Of a DNA stretch of 38,480 nt, positions 4,140 to 38,198 are shown one piece after another. Both the position numbers and the translations under genes were made by a program. The notes under the pieces were generated by a model. That model was given only the letters and a program-made list of their open reading frames with translations, was not told the origin of the DNA and did not search any database. Numbering within the stretch: position 1 is the first letter of the stretch; every line of letters begins with the position of its first letter. Origin of the DNA: a virus; the IMG/VR virus record IMGVR_UViG_3300046321_000285, positions 1-38,480 of that record; one strand, written 5' to 3'.

Positions 4140-4283
4140 ATGATAAAAAAAATAGAACAAAAAAAGAAAGAACTTGAAGAAATAAAAAAGAAAATAAAAG
4201 AACTTCAAAAGCAAAGAAAACAAGTCTATAACTACATTACTCTGTACGAATGGAGAGAAAAACAGAAAGAAAATGAAATTTAA
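4140..4283 (+). CDS. Short coiled-coil peptide
   Basis: 47 residues, almost all Lys, Glu and Ile in a helical pattern (KKKELEEIKKKIKELQKQ). The 3' end overlaps the next gene by 11 bases (ATGAAATTTAA), which suggests coupled translation. No family was recognised. Confidence 0.55.
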   Translation: MIKKIEQKKKELEEIKKKIKELQKQRKQVYNYITLYEWREKQKENEI

Positions 4284-4776
4284 ATTTGACTTTCAAAAAA
4301 TAAAGAATATACTTGTCTCATCACAACAAGTGATGCAATCTATATTCTTCGTCGGAAGCACGTCACGCCCAAATCATATGAAATACTTTTATTCAAGATC
4401 TATATCAAGTACAACTCTCACTCGAGAAGATGGAAAAATAGTGATCAACTGGGGTGCATTCCATGCAGAATCGAAAGGAGAAATTGAATCATTTAAAAAA
4501 TTTATCCCAGATTCCATTGAAATGAGTTATGAAGAAGCGAAAGTTTTCTGTGAAAATGCTGGTCTTATGAAAAAATTCCTTGAATCAGAAAATCATGAAG
4601 AACTCAAGGTATACCTTGAAGTTGAGTGAGCAAAAAGAAAAGCATTTACAGAGAAACTCAAAAAAGAAGAAAGTTTAAAAAAATCACTCATGGATCAAAA
4701 GATCAAAAATGGAGAATGGAAAATGCTCGGATTGCGTTTGGTAGATTCAAAGACATGAGAAAAAATTGTACTATAA
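4273..4776 (+). CDS. Hypothetical protein, last gene before the gene-free stretch
   Basis: 167 residues when TGA is read as Gly; the single in-frame TGA (in EVEGAKR) would otherwise truncate it at 118. It looks like a soluble alpha/beta protein (SSTTLTREDGKIVINWGAFHAES) with a highly charged helical C-terminus. Its last codons overlap a TATAAT box (4772-4777) that may start the downstream structured RNA. No family was recognised. Confidence 0.65.
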
Positions 4777-4777
4777 T
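4772..4777 (+). promoter_or_regulatory. -10 box (TATAAT) before the structured RNA
   Basis: A consensus TATAAT placed right at the end of the preceding gene. The predicted start, about seven bases downstream, falls just before the first hairpin of the gene-free stretch. No good -35 hexamer is visible. Confidence 0.45.
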
Positions 4778-5550
4778 CATTTTATACTCTCCTCCTCATC
4801 CCGACTCGCTCGGTGTGAGACTGGAGAGGATGTAAGATACCCTCTCTGATTGTATCAGACCTCTCTCGTAGAGAGGAGGGGGAATAAACTGGGCTAGCAA
4901 ATCAGAAGCTCCGCCAAGAGCATAGTGCAATACTATTTCCCCTTCTCTTTATGAGAATTTAATCTTTATATTTTTTATTATGTGACTTTTGACTTGATTA
5001 TTCGAGGTTGCAACCTCTCCAATTTCTATAGTTGCTGATGTGTTCACTTTAGGCAACGTTTGAGAAAATAAATCATTTACTCGACAAAAAATGGAAGATA
5101 TAGAAAGAGAATTCAAGCGATAGAATCCCTCATAGTGAGAGTGAAGTGGTAGCTCAACCGGTCCCACTTCACTCTCCTTGTGAGAATTCCAATTGACTCA
5201 ACTCAATAATTAAATATACTCCTCAAAAAGGATGAGTATAAACATCCGACTCGATAAGAGCATAGCACGTGGAAGTGAGTGTCACCATATGCCGTATATC
5301 CTGTAAACAGGGCGATCATACTCCGACAATCCGACGTGAAGAGATCAGAACTACTGATATGATAGCGAGGACTCGTGCTAGACAATCGAAGATCTGACGT
5401 TGTCAGTCTAGCGATAAGAGGATGACTCTGAGTGGTAACGACTAGTGCATCACTCTATCTAGCATAGTGAGGTAACACGTGTCTCTGGTAGATCTTACCG
5501 TGCGACCTCCTCCTCACCTCTGCTCGAGACTCTGAACAGTCTATATATAC
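4778..5550 (+). ncRNA. Candidate large structured non-coding RNA
   Basis: About 770 bases with no acceptable + strand gene, starting after a TATAAT box. Stems seen by eye: CTCTCC/GGAGAG (4787-4828, with nested CTCA/TGAG and CCG/CGG); CTGAT/ATCAG (4846-4858); CCTCTCT/AGAGAGG (4860-4876); palindrome GAGGTTGCAACCTC (near 5005); a 13-bp stem at 5137-5176; TATACTC/GAGTATA (5215-5240). A long-range helix TAGCACG (5263-5269) with CGTGCTA (5374-5380) encloses GTGA/TCAC, CCTG/CAGG and ATCAG/CTGAT hairpins. CTAGAC/GTCTAG (5378-5411) encloses CTGAC-GTT-GTCAG. The 10-mer AAGAGCATAG occurs at 4916 and 5256. Large ornate RNAs (GOLLD, ROOL) are known from phages; identity to either cannot be judged here. 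It could be two RNAs, split near 4950-5100. Confidence 0.55.
5123..5189. repeat. Long inverted repeat (13-bp perfect stem)
   Basis: GAGAGTGAAGTGG (5137-5149) pairs perfectly with CCACTTCACTCTC (5164-5176) around a 14-base loop. Outer CTCA/TGAG and GAAT/ATTC pairs extend the arm. There is no U-run, so it is not a simple terminator. The loop (TAGCTCAACCGGTC) resembles a tRNA D-loop, but no tRNA can be completed around it. Confidence 0.75.
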
Positions 5551-5552
5551 TG

Positions 5553-5558
5553 TATAAT
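5553..5558 (+). promoter_or_regulatory. -10 box (TATAAT) of the 5583 gene
   Basis: Perfect TATAAT 24 bases before the ATG of the small HTH gene, directly after an ACAGT/ACTGT hairpin that ends the structured stretch. CTGAAC upstream is a weak -35 candidate. Confidence 0.45.
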
Positions 5559-5582
5559 ATAACTAATAAATAAATATTAAAT

Positions 5583-6026
5583 ATGACAAGAGGAAAAAGA
5601 ACATCTGCAGAAGTTAAGGCAAAAATAATTGAAGAGAAGATAAACACTGATTGAAGTGCTCGCGATATTGAACAATCAACTTGAATACCTCATGAGACAA
5701 TTGCTAAGGTTCTTCGTGACGATTTTGCACAAATTTGCACGAAGAACGATAAAGTGAGTGATCTCATATCACGCAACAACAATCTCCAGAGTGCAGCCGA
5801 TGCACTTATCGCCGAGATGATAGCGAATAAGCACGAGTCAGTCACAGTCGCACAGCTCACAACTCTCAGACAGTCAACATTCACTCAGAATCAACTGCTG
5901 ACGTGACAAGCTACTGACAGAGTAGACGTGACAGGCTATGACATCATCAAGGATATATCAACAGGCAAAATTAAGCGTGATGACGCGTATGCAATTCTCG
6001 ATCAGACCAACGAAGAAGACTCATAG
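5583..6026 (+). CDS. HTH protein, possible small terminase subunit
   Basis: 147 residues. Residues about 8-45 form a helix-turn-helix (KIIEEKINTDGSARDIEQ then GIPHETIAKVLRDDF). A helical oligomerisation-type region follows (residues 55-100), then a short C-terminal tail ending in acidic residues. Small terminase subunits recognise the packaging site with such an HTH and are encoded ahead of structural genes. Here the large subunit is 11 kb away, so a transcription regulator remains possible. The stop codon lies inside an intrinsic terminator, which makes this a single-gene transcript. Confidence 0.6.
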
Positions 6027-17316: not shown

Positions 17317-17340
17317 ACCTTGCAAAAATCAATAAAAACG

Positions 17341-17346
17341 TATAAT
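17341..17346 (+). promoter_or_regulatory. -10 box of the terminase-operon promoter (leaderless)
   Basis: TATAAT followed by six bases (AACCGC) and the ATG at 17353. TTGCAA at 17320-17325 is the best -35, at a short 15-base spacing. A longer reading frame begins at 17320 but would start upstream of this promoter, so 17353 is preferred. Confidence 0.7.
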
Positions 17347-17352
17347 AACCGC

Positions 17353-19020
17353 ATGTCATACGCTACTCCTGAATATGAGGACAATCTACTCGATGAAATA
17401 CTATCACGTATAGCACGTGATCAAGAGATCAAAGAGCTCATAAAAAGTGATAAAGAAAAGGCAAAGAATAAAATACAGAGAGAAATGATAAAATGCTATC
17501 AAGACCCTGTGTATTTTATCGAGAGCTACCTCTACACTGAAAAAAATGAGGCTTTTTTCAGTGAACGAATAGGAAAAATGGTACCGTATCTCCTATTTGA
17601 CTACCAAGTGCAAGCAGTGGATGATACCATAGCTTGTATAGAGAAAAAAGAACGTATATTCCTAGAAAAAAGCCGTCAGATGGGTATATCGTGGCTCTAT
17701 TGTGCAATTGCATTGTGGGGGTGGTTATTTCGCGACTGGAAAATACTATTTTTATCACAAAAAGAGGACTTCGTGGACAAAATATGAGATATGCAATCAC
17801 TCTTTCAAAAGATACGATTCATGGTGAAATATCTGCCAAAATGGATGATGCCAAAATGATTCTCCATAGAAAAGCACATGCCACGCCTCCGCATAATAAA
17901 GCCTGGTGGACAGTGAACGTGAAGCATAGTAGGTGACTCAAGTAATAGCAATGCTGGTACAGGTGGTACATATAAAATCGTATTCCTCGATGAGTTCTCA
18001 AAGATGCAAAATGCAAGTTCTATCAATACGTCAGTTCAAGCAGCGTGTATCGGATCAATCATATATAATTGAACGCCATTCTGAAAGTTCAATGAACACT
18101 ACAAGATGAGAAAACTCGCTATACGATGAGATATGAAGCTCATACGACTACACTGGAGACTCAATCCAATGTATACCGAAGAATGGTATCGCACGAAAAC
18201 TCGTGGTATGCTTCCCGAAGCTATCGCACAAGAGTACGAAATAGACTATGAGGGATCTGTAACAGGTCGTGTATATCCTAACTTCTGAAATATGCCAAAA
18301 TGAGATTGTAAGTTTTATAAGTTCGCCTATGATCCATATCTCCCTACATATATCTCTATAGATAACTCACACGGTGGGAATGACAACCATGCAATAGTCG
18401 TCGCTCAAACTACACTCGATGGAAAGATCCGTATCGTCGACTCTCACCAATTCCCACCTCGAACGACTATATCAGAATGTGCATCATTTATGGCTCTACA
18501 ACCTATATGAGATCTCGATCAGGAGTCGTATGAGTTCCTATCTCGTCTCAAAACTTATAAGAAAGCAATATATATCGCTGATCCATACGATACAAAGGCG
18601 ACGTGGGATGATACAAGTATACTCAAGGTATATCGAAACTATGGTATCAATCTCATGGTTCCTGATAGAAAAAAATCAAAAGAGGAGCAAATAACCGTTG
18701 TACGTATGGCGATGCCACGTGTAGAGGTTAGTATAGACACGGAAAGCACGGATAATGTAAATTGGGAGTTCACAACGTCAATACAATCCGCACGCTATCC
18801 AGAGAAACGAGAATGATCACAGAGTACTAGTGAAAATACAAAGCCTATCCACGATGAAACATCACACTATAGAACCTCGTTCGAGTATCTCATAAACTAT
18901 ATCATAGAAATAGAAGAAGCACTCGGTATCGTATGAGGTATGAGACAACCGCAAAGAGAGAAAGTACTCGTCGAGCGAGCCAATCATATAACAGGGGAAA
19001 TCGAGCTTGTGCTCGAATAA
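17353..19020 (+). CDS. terL: Terminase large subunit
   Basis: 555 residues. The ATPase motor has the deviant Walker A typical of terminases, EKSRQMGISW (Lys106 to Ser113), and Walker B VFLDEF (Asp213-Glu214). The nuclease begins with YISIDNSHGG (Asp337) and continues through IYIADPYDTKATWDD. The enzyme cuts concatemeric DNA and pumps it into the prohead through the portal encoded next. It starts the packaging/capsid operon with a probably leaderless message. TGA codons occur throughout, including just before the strand around DMQSLF, where standard-code reading stops. Confidence 0.9.
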
Positions 19021-25761: not shown

Positions 25762-27852
25762 ATGCGAAGTCTAACACACACTATCTCACAAAAAAAGTAC
25801 AACCAACCGATTGGTGAACTCAACCCCCTCTCCCTCTTTCGCAATGGTGAGCAAGGGGTATGGTATGACCCGAGTGACATCAAGCTCGGGTGGAGGAGAA
25901 ACCTATTAACGAATAGCAATACTCCATCGTGGATGACATTTAATGGAACTATTACAGTCACAAATAATTACGCAAATGCTCCAGATGGAACATTTACTGC
26001 ACAGAGAATACAATTCCCACTTAGTACCAGTGCGAATCAGGCGTGACTATCTTACTCTGTGAATAATTGAACCTATACTTCTAGTGTATGGATGAGAGTC
26101 GCTAGTTGAACAGCACAGATAAAGTTTTGATTTTTTGATTGAAACGTCAAGAATGACTTTGTAACACTGACTACAACATGGCAAAGATTCTCCAGTACTC
26201 AATCACTCGTACCATATTGAGCTAGAGTATGTTGGATATTTCCAGAGTGAGATAGTAATGCTCAGGATATCCAAGTATGGTGAGCTCAACTCGAAACATG
26301 AGTATTATCATCATACCAAAAAATAACCGACTGAATACAAGACTACTATACCTATCATCCACTCCCTACATTGTACCAAGACTCTGCTGGAACAACACCT
26401 GTCACAGCAGTAGAACAACCAGTAGGGTTAATGCTCGATAAGAGCAAGAATCTAGCACTGGGCATAGAGAAATTCTCCGATGCCTCCGCCACATTCGTTG
26501 GGGGGTCCTCGAGGGTTTCGCCTGGTGTGTATCGTATTTACTCGTCAGACGGGACTTACTCTTTAGCGAATATAGCGTTTGGTCTGACTATTGGTACTAC
26601 CTACAGACTTGTCTTTACGATAGATAGTGTGACTGTTGCTGGTAGTGGTCTGTCCAGTGAACCAGGCAGTATTATTCTCGGCTCTACAGCGGGCATTAAA
26701 ACCCACATCTTCACCGCTACCAGTACCACATTCGGAATCAAGCGTGCCAGCACCGCCTGCGATATACAAATTAGCGGTATCTCCGTCCGAGAGCTCGCAT
26801 GAAACCACGCCTTTCAACCCACCTCCGCATCTCGTCCAACTCTCTCGGCGAGGGTGAATCTACTAACGAAGACAGAACTTTTTAATGATTCAATATGGAC
26901 TAGAGTATGAGGAGTTACTACTCCATCTGCCAATACAATCAATTTTCCGAATGTAATGGAAGCTATATATCAAGCGTATAATATTAGCCCTCCAGTCTGA
27001 AAAAAAATCACATGAAGTGTGACATTGTCAGGCTCTGGAACTATCGTAATATTTGTTGCGAGAATCAATGGTGTTGGCTACGAAGAGACAACATCAACTA
27101 TAACCCTAACATCAACTCCAACTCGGTATAGTGTAACACACACTGTAGTCAATGCTGGCCAAATATCATTCGCTCTGTGAATAAGTCGTGGTGGCTCATG
27201 AACTGCAACTACAATTACAGCTACAGGTGCTCAACTAGAAGTTGGGACACTCGCTACAAAATACCAAAAAGTAGTAACCTCATCAGACTACGACACCGTC
27301 TGATTCCCCATCTACCTCAAGTGTGACTGAGTCGATGATGGAATGGTGACGAACTCGATTGATTTCACAGGGACAAATAAGATGACAGTCTCATCATGAC
27401 TCCGTAAGTTGAGTGATGTCGCATGAGCATCCATATTTGTGGAAATATCAAGTGCTACTTGAGTGAACCAATGAACATTCTGAATAGCCGCTCCATTGAA
27501 TAACTCTGGAAGTAATCTCGCATTCGGTTCATCCTGAAGTACATTCACAGAGTGGGCAACAGTTGTGACTAAGTATAGTGCACCGTCATCAATGGTTGTA
27601 TCATGAATTGGTGATATACCATCACGAATCTCTCAAGTGCGAGTTAATTGAGCACTAGAAGCATCCTCCACTGGAAATCAATGAACAGGTAACTATGGAA
27701 ACTATCCACTCTACCTATTCCGCCGTGGTGGTTCATCTCTACCATTCAACGGGTATATGTACGGGCTCATCATCCGTGGGGCAACAACTCCTACAGCTAC
27801 TATCCAGAAAATAGAAAAATACATGAATAAAAAAGTCGGTAAAATCTACTAA
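25762..27852 (+). CDS. Large tail fibre with repeated carbohydrate-binding modules
   Basis: 696 residues. The N-terminus has the pattern LFRNGEQGVWYDPSD seen at the attachment end of some phage fibres. Two related jelly-roll modules follow. The first begins NLLTNSNTPSWMTFNG and ends GAQLETGVLSSYQK; the second begins NLLTKTELFNDSIWTRVGG and ends GAQLEVGTLATKYQK. A third beta module lies between them. Residues about 515-690 look like a concanavalin/LamG-type end domain (TNSIDFTGTNKMTVSSG; LYLFRRGGSSLPFNGYMYG). The protein probably mediates adsorption to host surface sugars. Dozens of glycines are TGA. Confidence 0.75.
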
Positions 27853-33476: not shown

Positions 33477-33590
33477 ATAGTATATAAAACAGAAAACTCA
33501 AGAAAAGGTAAAACACTTATAACCAAAATATCTAATTATGCAAATGGAAAAACGTTTAAAGATTTGCTTTCTAAAAAAAGTATGATATAA
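33474..33590 (+). CDS. Possible 38-residue basic protein divergent from int
   Basis: Reads MIVYKTENSRKGKTLITKIS then NYANGKTFKDLLSKKSMI before TAA. It is basic, with a helix-like end. Small basic proteins divergent from or next to int are often excisionase or Cro-like, but no motif confirms this. Its stop overlaps the TATAAT box at 33586. It could be noise. Confidence 0.3.
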   Translation: MIVYKTENSRKGKTLITKISNYANGKTFKDLLSKKSMI

Positions 33591-33591
33591 T
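33586..33591 (+). promoter_or_regulatory. Promoter ahead of the att/tRNA-like region
   Basis: TATAAT with TTGCTT 16 bases upstream (33564-33569), the best -35/-10 pair in the window. The 16-base string GATATAATCGTCTCAT is shared with the leaderless promoter at 6082. The predicted transcript starts near 33598 and runs through the tRNA-like sequence. Confidence 0.6.
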
Positions 33592-33602
33592 CGTCTCATA
33601 CA

Positions 33603-33717
33603 GTTAAGTAACCAAGCAATCCCTAGTGTAGAGGTCTCCAAAGCCTTTGACCATGGTTCGAATCCATGTGGGACTGCCATACCATTTATTAAAAAATAAA
33701 AAGGTCGGTTACTTAAC
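33603..33717. repeat. Inverted repeats flanking the att core
   Basis: GTTAAGTAACC (33603-33613) and its complement GGTTACTTAAC (33707-33717) flank the tRNA-like core about 17 and 27 bases away. They may be integrase or excisionase arm sites, or the closing stem of an RNA made from the 33586 promoter. Confidence 0.65.
33631..33679 (+). other. Probable attP core: 3' half of a tRNA-Trp(CCA)
   Basis: GAGGT-CTCCAAA-GCCTT forms an anticodon arm with anticodon CCA. CATGG-TTCGAAT-CCATG is a perfect T arm, followed by TGGGACT, discriminator G and an encoded CCA. The 5' part of a normal tRNA (acceptor strand AGTCCCA and a D arm with GG) is missing. A phage site carrying the 3' half of a host tRNA beside an integrase gene is the classic attP arrangement: integration would restore the host gene. 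Alternatively GCAATCCC (33615-33622) can pair with GGGACTGC, giving a D-armless tRNA-like RNA. Confidence 0.7.
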
Positions 33718-33731
33718 AGTATCCGACCTTT
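33700..33731 (-). terminator. Intrinsic terminator, mainly minus-strand
   Basis: AAAGGTCGG (33700-33708) pairs with CCGACCTTT (33723-33731). On the minus strand it is followed by a long T-run, so it would stop leftward transcripts before att and int; on the plus strand only three T follow. Confidence 0.65.
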
Positions 33732-33797
33732 AACATTCACACAGAGTTCATAGATATCAGTGATCGCTTACCTCGCCCGAAGACTAAAACCCAGGGA

Positions 33798-33817
33798 TAT
33801 AATAGGACAAGTCCTAT
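33798..33817 (+). promoter_or_regulatory. -10 box overlapped by an operator palindrome
   Basis: TATAAT (33798-33803) overlaps the perfect palindrome ATAGGAC-AA-GTCCTAT (33802-33817). A second inverted repeat, ATAGT/ACTAT, lies at 33816-33834. This is the layout of a promoter blocked by a dimeric repressor. Confidence 0.55.
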
Positions 33818-34007
33818 AGTAAAGTACGAACTATACTATGTTACGAATAAAAACTCTGTAAATGTCTCAGAAAACTCAAAAAAAGCGAAAACAAAAAATC
33901 CCCTGCTTCAACAGGAGAAATCAAAAGGACTCAAACAAAATTACATACCCACTATATGTGGAACCTCGAAAAAATCAAATCTATAGCACTTCACAAGTGC
34001 TTTTTTT
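33808..34007 (+). ncRNA. Candidate small RNA or leader of about 200 bases
   Basis: It starts at the operator-covered promoter and ends at a strong intrinsic terminator. It contains a CCTG-CTTCAA-CAGG hairpin near 33901 and a very basic frame from 33862 (MSQKTQKKRKQK) that would run through the terminator and is therefore doubtful. It lies between att and the early genes, where lysogeny control would be expected. Confidence 0.4.
33985..34007 (+). terminator. Intrinsic terminator
   Basis: AGCACTT-CAC-AAGTGCT followed by a T-run of seven bases. Confidence 0.88.
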
Positions 34008-34525: not shown

Positions 34526-34695
34526 TGGACATCCTCGAACACTACGATCTCTGACGAGTCCACGCACTCGAATGACTCGAGAATTACATCAATAATACCA
34601 TGCCTCAGGCACAGGCAAAAAAGATGATTGGTATCATCAAGAATTTTAAATCTTATCAAAAAATCCCATATGAAACTCCGAAAAGCCGAACGTAA
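34525..34695 (+). CDS. Small helical protein
   Basis: 56 residues (LEHYDLGRVHALEGLENYIN), overlapping both neighbours: one base upstream and 26 bases with the Sak4-like gene. It may be a partner of the recombination ATPase; no family was recognised. Confidence 0.5.
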
Positions 34696-35893
34696 ACAGG
34701 CTAAATTACGCATATGATTCTCTGGTCCATCTGGATCAGGAAAAACATACTCTGCACTCCTGATGGCATACTGAATGGTATGAGATTGGTCAAAAATCGT
34801 TCTCATAGACTCAGAAAATTGATCATGAGAGCTATACTCAAATCTCTGAGAATACAACGTGCTCCCGCTCGATGCACCATACTCTCCCGAGAGATATATC
34901 GAGGCAATCAAATCATGTGAAGATGCAGGTATGGAGGTCATCGTCATCGACTCAACCTCCCATGAGTGGGAGGGAAAATGATGATGCCTAGAAATCAACG
35001 AAAAAATTGCATCCGCAAAATTCAAATGAAATACATGGTGAGCATGGTCAGAAACAACACCACGCCATCAAAAATTCATTGAAGCAATAGTCACATCAAG
35101 ATGCCATGTCATCACTACCGCGAGATCAAAAACAGATACCATTCAATGAGAGGATAAAAAGATCAAGAAAGTCGGTACCAAGGAGATCCAGCGTGAGGGA
35201 TTCGAATACGAACTCACTGCCAACTTCAATATCGACCGAGATCATCACCTCGCTATCGCGAGCAAGGATCGTACTGGACTCTTCATCGACCGAGATCCAT
35301 TTCTCATCACTGCCGATATCGGCAAGGAGATCATGGTATGGAATCAGTCAGGTGTCGATGGCGATGTTATAGAGGCAGAGAAAAAAGCTCGTGAGGAAAA
35401 AGAAAAACAAGAACTTGAAGCAAAAGAAGCAAAGGATAGAGATGATCTCTATAATGCAATGCTTGCAAAAATGCAATCAGTAAAACTCATCGAGGATCTC
35501 GCATCCATCTGGACCAACGATGTCATGAAGAATAAAGTCTCTCTATGAGATGCATATATCAAGGATCTCACCGAGCGAAAGGATGCTATCAAGGCAGAGC
35601 TCATGAAGACTCCAGAAATAAAAACACCTCCTGCACCTGCACCAAAAACCGAGGTAGTAGATGATCCACAGCCAACTGATACCGTCACTCCTCCATCAGA
35701 TCCCATCATCGATCGACGTGCACTCTCCCCTGCTGACTATGAAGACGTACTCTACATGATCAAGTGATCCAAGGATGCTAAGCAGATGGAAGAAACTCGC
35801 AATCATATCGAGCAAGTGTATGCACGATGTCGCATGAGCGAGAGCCAATACAAATCACTCAAGATCATAGCCGACTCACTTTCCACTTTCTAA
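34670..35893 (+). CDS. Sak4-like RecA-fold recombination ATPase
   Basis: 407 residues. P-loop GPSGSGKT at 19-26, preceded by RIGFS with the Gly written TGA. Walker B region EVIVIDSTSHEWEGKG, then NTWGAWSETTPRHQKFIEAI and HVITTARSKTD match the phage AAA/RecA-core ATPases grouped as Sak4 annealing proteins. Residues 240-290 are a charged coiled coil, residues 310-345 a Pro/Thr linker, and the last 60 residues a helical domain (NHIEQVYARCRMSESQYKSL). Sak4 works with a phage SSB in single-strand annealing; the adjacent exonuclease would supply resected DNA. Confidence 0.8.
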
Positions 35894-38117: not shown

Positions 38118-38122
38118 TCCTA

Positions 38123-38198
38123 GAGCCTCTCACCACGACCATGTCGTGTATTCGCTAAAGCTACAATCCTCGTGATTGTGGTGAGGGGCTCACTTTTT
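38123..38198 (+). terminator. Branched intrinsic terminator
   Basis: GAGCCTCTCACCAC (38123-38136) pairs with GTGGTGAGGGGCTC (38178-38191), 14 bp with one G-U, followed by ACTTTTT. Two smaller hairpins (GAC/GTC; CAATC/GATTG) can form inside, giving a three-way junction unusual for a plain terminator. Confidence 0.75.

Follow-up and report, generated by a model that had tools for sequence, protein, structure and literature searches.

What is the role of the longest gene-free stretch in a phage genome that reads TGA as glycine? The window analysed is the whole of an IMG/VR virus record, a linear metagenomic contig of 38,480 bases, which was read with code 25. Tiling of the record by coding score placed 46 of its 47 genes on the + strand and left 4777-5582 as the largest gap (806 nt, as compared to 557, 525 and 439 nt for the next three), flanked by an ORF of 167 amino acids upstream (4273-4776) and one of 147 amino acids downstream (5583-6026). 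The gap is non-coding: none of the six frames on both strands gave a coding signal with code 25, and its reading as code-25 coding DNA was rejected on this ground. The gene-free stretch reported in a preliminary description of this DNA is thus real, and the TATAAT boxes said to bound it are present at 4772-4777 and 5553-5558.

Upstream of the gap are RusA- and YopX-like genes, downstream of it are structural genes, and replication genes lie at the contig end; this order of the neighbouring genes identifies the gap as the junction of replication/recombination and structural genes. Comparison of the gap DNA to phage records returned one 25-nt match, judged to be chance, and no close relative of the record was found in IMG/VR. 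The preliminary description proposed a new, large and ornate RNA. The explanation that we favour, at about even confidence, is that the late (packaging/structural) operon, which starts with a probable small terminase subunit gene (terS), has its leader and control region in the gap.

Elements of the gap and its flanking genes

The features on which the argument draws are as follows.

4273-4776, + strand: upstream ORF of 167 amino acids, from the ORF list
4750-4777, + strand: promoter-like site P1 (AAGACA-16-TATAAT), which overlaps the stop codon of the upstream ORF (10/12 in a consensus scan, which is not evidence of function)
4779-4838, + strand: 5' hairpin H1, which folds with a weak z
4864-4956, + strand: hairpin H2, a continuous 23-bp helix (4864-4886/4934-4956) with a 47-nt loop
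4957-4985, + strand: A+U-rich, U-rich tract directly 3' of H2
5004-5017, no strand assigned: perfect 14-bp palindrome GAGGTTGCAACCTC, operator-like in sequence
5129-5184, + strand: hairpin C, with 21-nt arms that include a perfect 13-bp stem (5137-5149/5164-5176)
5193-5220, + strand: promoter-like site P2, TTGACT-16-TATACT (10/12 in the consensus scan)
5215-5240, no strand assigned: operator-like inverted repeat TATACTCCTC/GATGAGTATA, overlapping the -10 box of P2
5241-5535, no strand assigned: non-coding part without excess structure, holding a 7-bp long-range helix
5536-5558, no strand assigned: operator-like dyad ACAGT (5536-5540)/ACTGT (5549-5553), abutting a promoter-like TATAAT (5553-5558)
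5583-6026, + strand: probable terS, 147 amino acids, with which the structural/packaging run opens

For the upstream ORF, family searches gave no match above cut-off and no recognised regulator domain, with one sub-threshold NCBIfam match; it occupies the place of the late regulator in comparable Firmicutes phages and, judged from this position only, may be such a gene. The product of 5583-6026 is 56% identical to that of a gene in contig L003 which lies just upstream of terL, with one short ORF between, and it is this homologue beside terL that identifies it as a probable terS. AlphaFold models the protein as helices throughout, with a helix-turn-helix near the N terminus, but at low confidence (mean pLDDT 57), which was too poor for use in a fold search. 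Downstream of terS are genes for an SU10-type adaptor, for virion proteins and for tail proteins, and, at a distance of 11-15 kb, those for terL and portal. The probable terS and terL (17320-19020) are 11 kb apart, with tail and virion genes between them. This order is kept in the related record G014, and the gene in the terS position of a second relative, G015, is likewise distant from its terL; the terL beside the L003 homologue belongs to a different lineage.

Folding of the whole stretch is better than that of shuffled sequences (z -4.9), against a genome background in which 360-nt windows average z -1.0 and a few coding windows reach -5. Segment tests against shuffles located the excess at 4855-4960 (z -5.4 on the + strand and -1.5 on the - strand) and at 5100-5200 (-5.5 and -4.0, respectively). 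The H1 segment is weak on both strands (-2.7 on + and -2.8 on -), the segment 5200-5560 folds no better than shuffled sequence (z -0.8), and even the strongest helix within 5200-5582 falls short of the shuffle mean (-14.9 versus -16.0 kcal/mol). Significant excess structure is confined to two helices, H2 and the 13-bp stem of hairpin C. The ornate architecture that the preliminary description saw throughout is thus mostly folding at the level of random sequence. Its perfect 13-bp stem exists, and its long-range helix 5263-5269/5374-5380 pairs exactly, but is only 7 bp long and at chance level, as evident from perfect runs of at least 7 pairs in 231 of 240 shuffles of the part that holds it. 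A competing hairpin (5376-5383/5406-5413) also overlaps this helix. H2, the strongest element of the gap, was missing from that earlier list.

The H2 helix includes four G-U pairs and is fully paired only on the + strand. Its stacking energy is -40.4 kcal/mol, as compared to -17.9 ± 2.1 kcal/mol in 240 shuffles, none of which came near. Both the G-U pairs and the weak folding of the other strand point to selection on RNA of the + strand. Among the most stable 110-nt windows of the genome H2 ranks second. The most stable hairpin (38121-38190, + strand; -44.9 kcal/mol in 110 nt) lies near the contig end, after the replication initiator, with a short T-rich run behind it, and is probably a terminator. 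The U-rich tract after H2 is a possible weak terminator, although a terminator scan made no call at H2 or at 4957-4985. Directly inward of H2 lies a small hairpin, AUAG-UGCAAUA-CUAU, which recalls a T arm by resemblance only. The outer arm of hairpin C resembles H2 (16 nt at 88%; Smith-Waterman score 22 versus 14.1 ± 2.1, equalled by 1 of 200 shuffles), and on this modest evidence the two may be duplicates of each other.

Promoter-like sites are barely in excess in the record (12 found versus 7.6 expected from shuffles) and are consensus matches only; one further site, TCGAGA-16-TATACT at 5524-5551, neighbours the dyad at 5536-5558. Dyads overlap or abut two of the three promoter-like sites at 4750-4777, 5193-5220 and 5553-5558.

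A proposed leader of the late operon and its closest alternatives

The placement of the gap is that expected of a late leader, as the non-coding stretch stands directly before the first late genes. Promoter-like sites at both of its ends and in its middle, main genes that all lie on one strand and the strand-asymmetric H2 also speak for this reading. We infer that the gap is transcribed and regulatory, and each step and hairpin function that follows is proposed on that footing. Transcription would start from P1, and probably also from P2 and near 5558. A transcript started at P1 would carry H1, the long H2 helix, the U-rich tract and then hairpin C. H2 and C may be cis elements of the late transcript, with a part in its stability/processing or in pausing/antitermination, and the dyads and the unstructured 5241-5535 would act as DNA, as operators and perhaps as a terminase recognition site. 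Against this reading stand the promoters and terminators, which are only consensus matches, the upstream ORF without a recognised regulator domain, the lack of alignable sequence among three leaders at this position, and the closest terS, that of L003, which has no such leader.

Comparable Firmicutes phages have 260-890 nt of non-coding DNA between their late-regulator and terminase genes, and the Rfam RNAs rli62 and mcrA occur in some of these stretches. The leaders of the Listeria and Enterococcus phages PSA, LP-P111, phiFL2A/3A and IME197 resemble the gap in running for 260-890 nt from a regulator gene to the first late genes and in bearing at least one strong hairpin; however, they carry rli62/mcrA, true tRNAs or the tRNA-like domain R1 described below, and the gap carries none of these. 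Two sequence likenesses to such leaders were rejected: 20 nt shared by hairpin C and the vB_LmoS_188 leader (1 of 200 shuffles in one of 11 comparisons, too weak after correction), and CGATAAGANCAT, common to the gap and the phiFL leaders, with an estimated chance expectation of about 0.4.

In phage lambda, the pR'/6S region forms a long leader between early/recombination and late genes, and a short structured RNA is made from the late promoter. The gap is similarly placed and its leader is likewise structured, but the record has no recognised Q-like gene and no mapped terminator, and its first late gene is no lysis gene but a terS-like one. In lambda, a late promoter yields the 6S RNA by default. 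A separate small RNA gene, spanning about 4784-4985 and composed of P1, H1, H2 and a U-rich end, has a minor but real probability here; its RNA would act in trans or on RNA polymerase, and the rest of the gap would be unrelated control DNA. The promoter-like site directly upstream and the strong + strand H2 with the U-rich tract right after it are consistent with such a gene, but the terminator scan passed over H2 and the same RNA occurs in no relative. A structured RNA of the terminase region is also known from staphylococcal phages, whose cabRNA lies inside the terS/terL coding sequence (PMC10686824); the element of the record differs in being non-coding and upstream of terS.

It is rather unlikely that the gap works mainly as DNA, that is, as a pac/cos site for the initiation of packaging together with operators, its hairpins being protein-bound inverted repeats. 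The adjoining probable terS, the part 5200-5582, which is neither coding nor structured, the about equal strength of hairpin C on both strands and the dyads at 5004-5017, 5215-5240 and 5536-5553 would all suit a DNA site. H2 does not, as its four G-U pairs and its significance on the + strand only are features which DNA inverted repeats do not need.

Leaders of related phages and the large-RNA proposal

Portal searches yielded two syntenic records, G014 (portal 61% and terL 63% identical) and G015 (42% for both), the values being identities within the alignments. In-frame TGA is used by both, and all three genomes have their genes in one order: terS position, adaptor, virion protein ... terL, portal. 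The following leaders precede the terS position.

G014, 27146-27684: non-coding leader of 539 nt, the largest gap of G014
G015, 280-636: non-coding leader of 357 nt

Each contains one long helix (G014, 19 bp; G015, 15 bp), which is stronger than in all 240 shuffles. The position of a helix-bearing leader is conserved in these two relatives. The G014 protein in the terS position is a distant relative of that of the record (23%, E 8e-6), and that of G015 is assigned by position only. Alignment of the three leaders gave similarity no better than shuffles; as the sequences cannot be aligned, a shared origin of the leaders rests on position and on one long helix in each. The preliminary description allowed for a conserved protein at the homologous position; this was looked for in the relatives, and none is encoded there. 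In L003, the position is occupied by ordinary small genes.

Further searches added no leader. IMG/VR queries returned nothing for the virion protein and L003 only for terS, the TerL query one distant contig (L002), and a virion-protein motif pattern recovered G014 and G015 only. The portal alignment query gave four more contigs (23-25% identical), and a terS leader could be read in none of them. A query with the Sak4-like gene matched mostly Bacteroidetes phages and genomes, and the leader matched in none of them. This AAA_24 (Sak4-like) gene (34628-35893, + strand) encodes a core 46-54% identical to proteins of Bacteroidetes genomes, which use the standard code, whereas the record uses code 25.

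The large ornate RNA of about 770 nt, a new class of the GOLLD/ROOL/OLE kind, is very improbable, although the length of the stretch, its overall z of -4.9 and its non-coding status speak for it. Rfam 15 gave no match in the whole record at gathering cut-offs, and only sub-threshold chance matches, to other families, in 4700-5640 at E <= 10. GOLLD, ROOL, HEARO and OLE, the models named in the preliminary description, are not among them, and these and every other Rfam family were rejected for the gap in the absence of a credible match. GOLLD and ROOL are often found near phage tRNA islands, and GOLLD, ROOL and OLE form homo-oligomeric RNA-only particles. Many GOLLD members exceed 800 nt (PMC12286853), and the gap resembles GOLLD and ROOL in being a phage-borne long non-coding stretch of comparable length. 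It differs in having no Rfam match and no tRNA island, ARAGORN having found no tRNA in the record, and in a structure that amounts to two local hairpins. Extensive long-range structure over most of the length was not observed (5200-5560, z -0.8), and the 3' 350 nt, nearly half of the stretch, is without excess structure; furthermore, the leaders of the relatives are only about 360-540 nt long and unalignable. A nanocage-type reading of the gap is unlikely. What stands of the earlier proposal is structure at the RNA level, in the form of two real helices and a leader that recurs in two distant relatives; the large ornate RNA itself is unsupported.

The only tRNA-like RNA noticed in the record lies 28 kb from the gap, at 33590-33735 (+ strand) in the intergenic region 33517-33955, with its own TATAAT. 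Its T arm is canonical (CATGG-TTCGAAT-CCATG), another arm has the 7-nt loop CUCCAAA, and a D arm is not evident; an 11-bp helix GUUAAGUAACC/GGUUACUUAAC encloses the RNA (fold z -3.85). ARAGORN missed it, and its score with the Rfam tRNA model (27.5 bits) is just under the cut-off of 29.

A tRNA-like RNA family at the late junction of other phages

A 27-base piece of the G015 leader is identical at 26 positions to non-coding DNA of Listeria phage LP-P111, where it sits ahead of genes for an HNH endonuclease, terS and terL, and the leader also matches LP-HM00113468 and Enterococcus phage EFP01. The piece common to the G015 leader and LP-P111 is a T arm. A 32-nt query with this arm matched 118 phage records, of which 113 are from Listeria, Enterococcus, Brochothrix, Paenibacillus and Weissella phages; the structure of the element is described from some twenty records that were examined individually. 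In this element, R1, the acceptor helix has 7 bp and lies directly against a T arm of 6 bp with the loop TNCAAAT, the acceptor is followed by a D-arm-like hairpin of tRNA-Leu-like sequence, and an insert of 0-150 nt takes the place of the anticodon arm. The loci of the family are as follows.

L050:460-617, and L058-L076: R1 family loci

An alignment of 13 sequences shows pairing in every cell; six of the seven pairs of the acceptor have both of their bases changed, and covariation scores 0.469, as compared to 0.168 in shuffles. A model built without G015 detects the held-out G015 leader at 35.2 bits (E 1.2e-6) and recovers members from further held-out phages. Siphophages often have the element between the terminase genes and a late-regulator gene (ArpU, DUF722, or annotated as sigma70 or transcriptional activator), and in Herelleviridae it lies among tRNA genes. 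Brochothrix phage ADU4 has two tandem copies (L075:644-765 and L075:844-1027), just upstream of tRNA-Met and tRNA-Lys. Rfam matched rli62, mcrA, tmRNA and true tRNAs at these loci and nothing at the element itself. A published description of the element was not found in the open-access literature, an absence which is not proof of novelty.

That the leader of the record is a degenerate member of this family is most improbable and was rejected: the membership of the G015 leader at the same position and the T-arm-like hairpin inward of H2 favour it, but an unfiltered search of 4700-5600 scored no higher than 4.6 bits, with 3.4 bits at H2, and the G014 leader also fails, at 6.7 bits on the other strand.

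A broader reading extends the late-operon leader, and as a joint claim it is distinctly unlikely. The code-25 clade of the record would keep, ahead of terS, a fast-evolving structured leader RNA that a single long helix closes; the G015 leader would be a tRNA-like RNA without an anticodon arm, from such a form of which the leader of the record derives; and both would belong to a widespread class of RNAs at the late-regulator/terminase junction, which RNase P may cut so as to shape the packaging mRNA.

The results show that a structured non-coding leader before the probable terS is kept in phages with TGA as a glycine codon, as it is at the corresponding place in many Firmicutes phages, and the record, G014 and G015 offer three concrete leaders open to testing. 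R1, a covarying tRNA-like RNA without a tRNA or Rfam match at its own location, may matter more than the leader from which it was reached. Its frequent position directly ahead of packaging genes makes a shared role, in the processing or regulation of late transcripts, testable.
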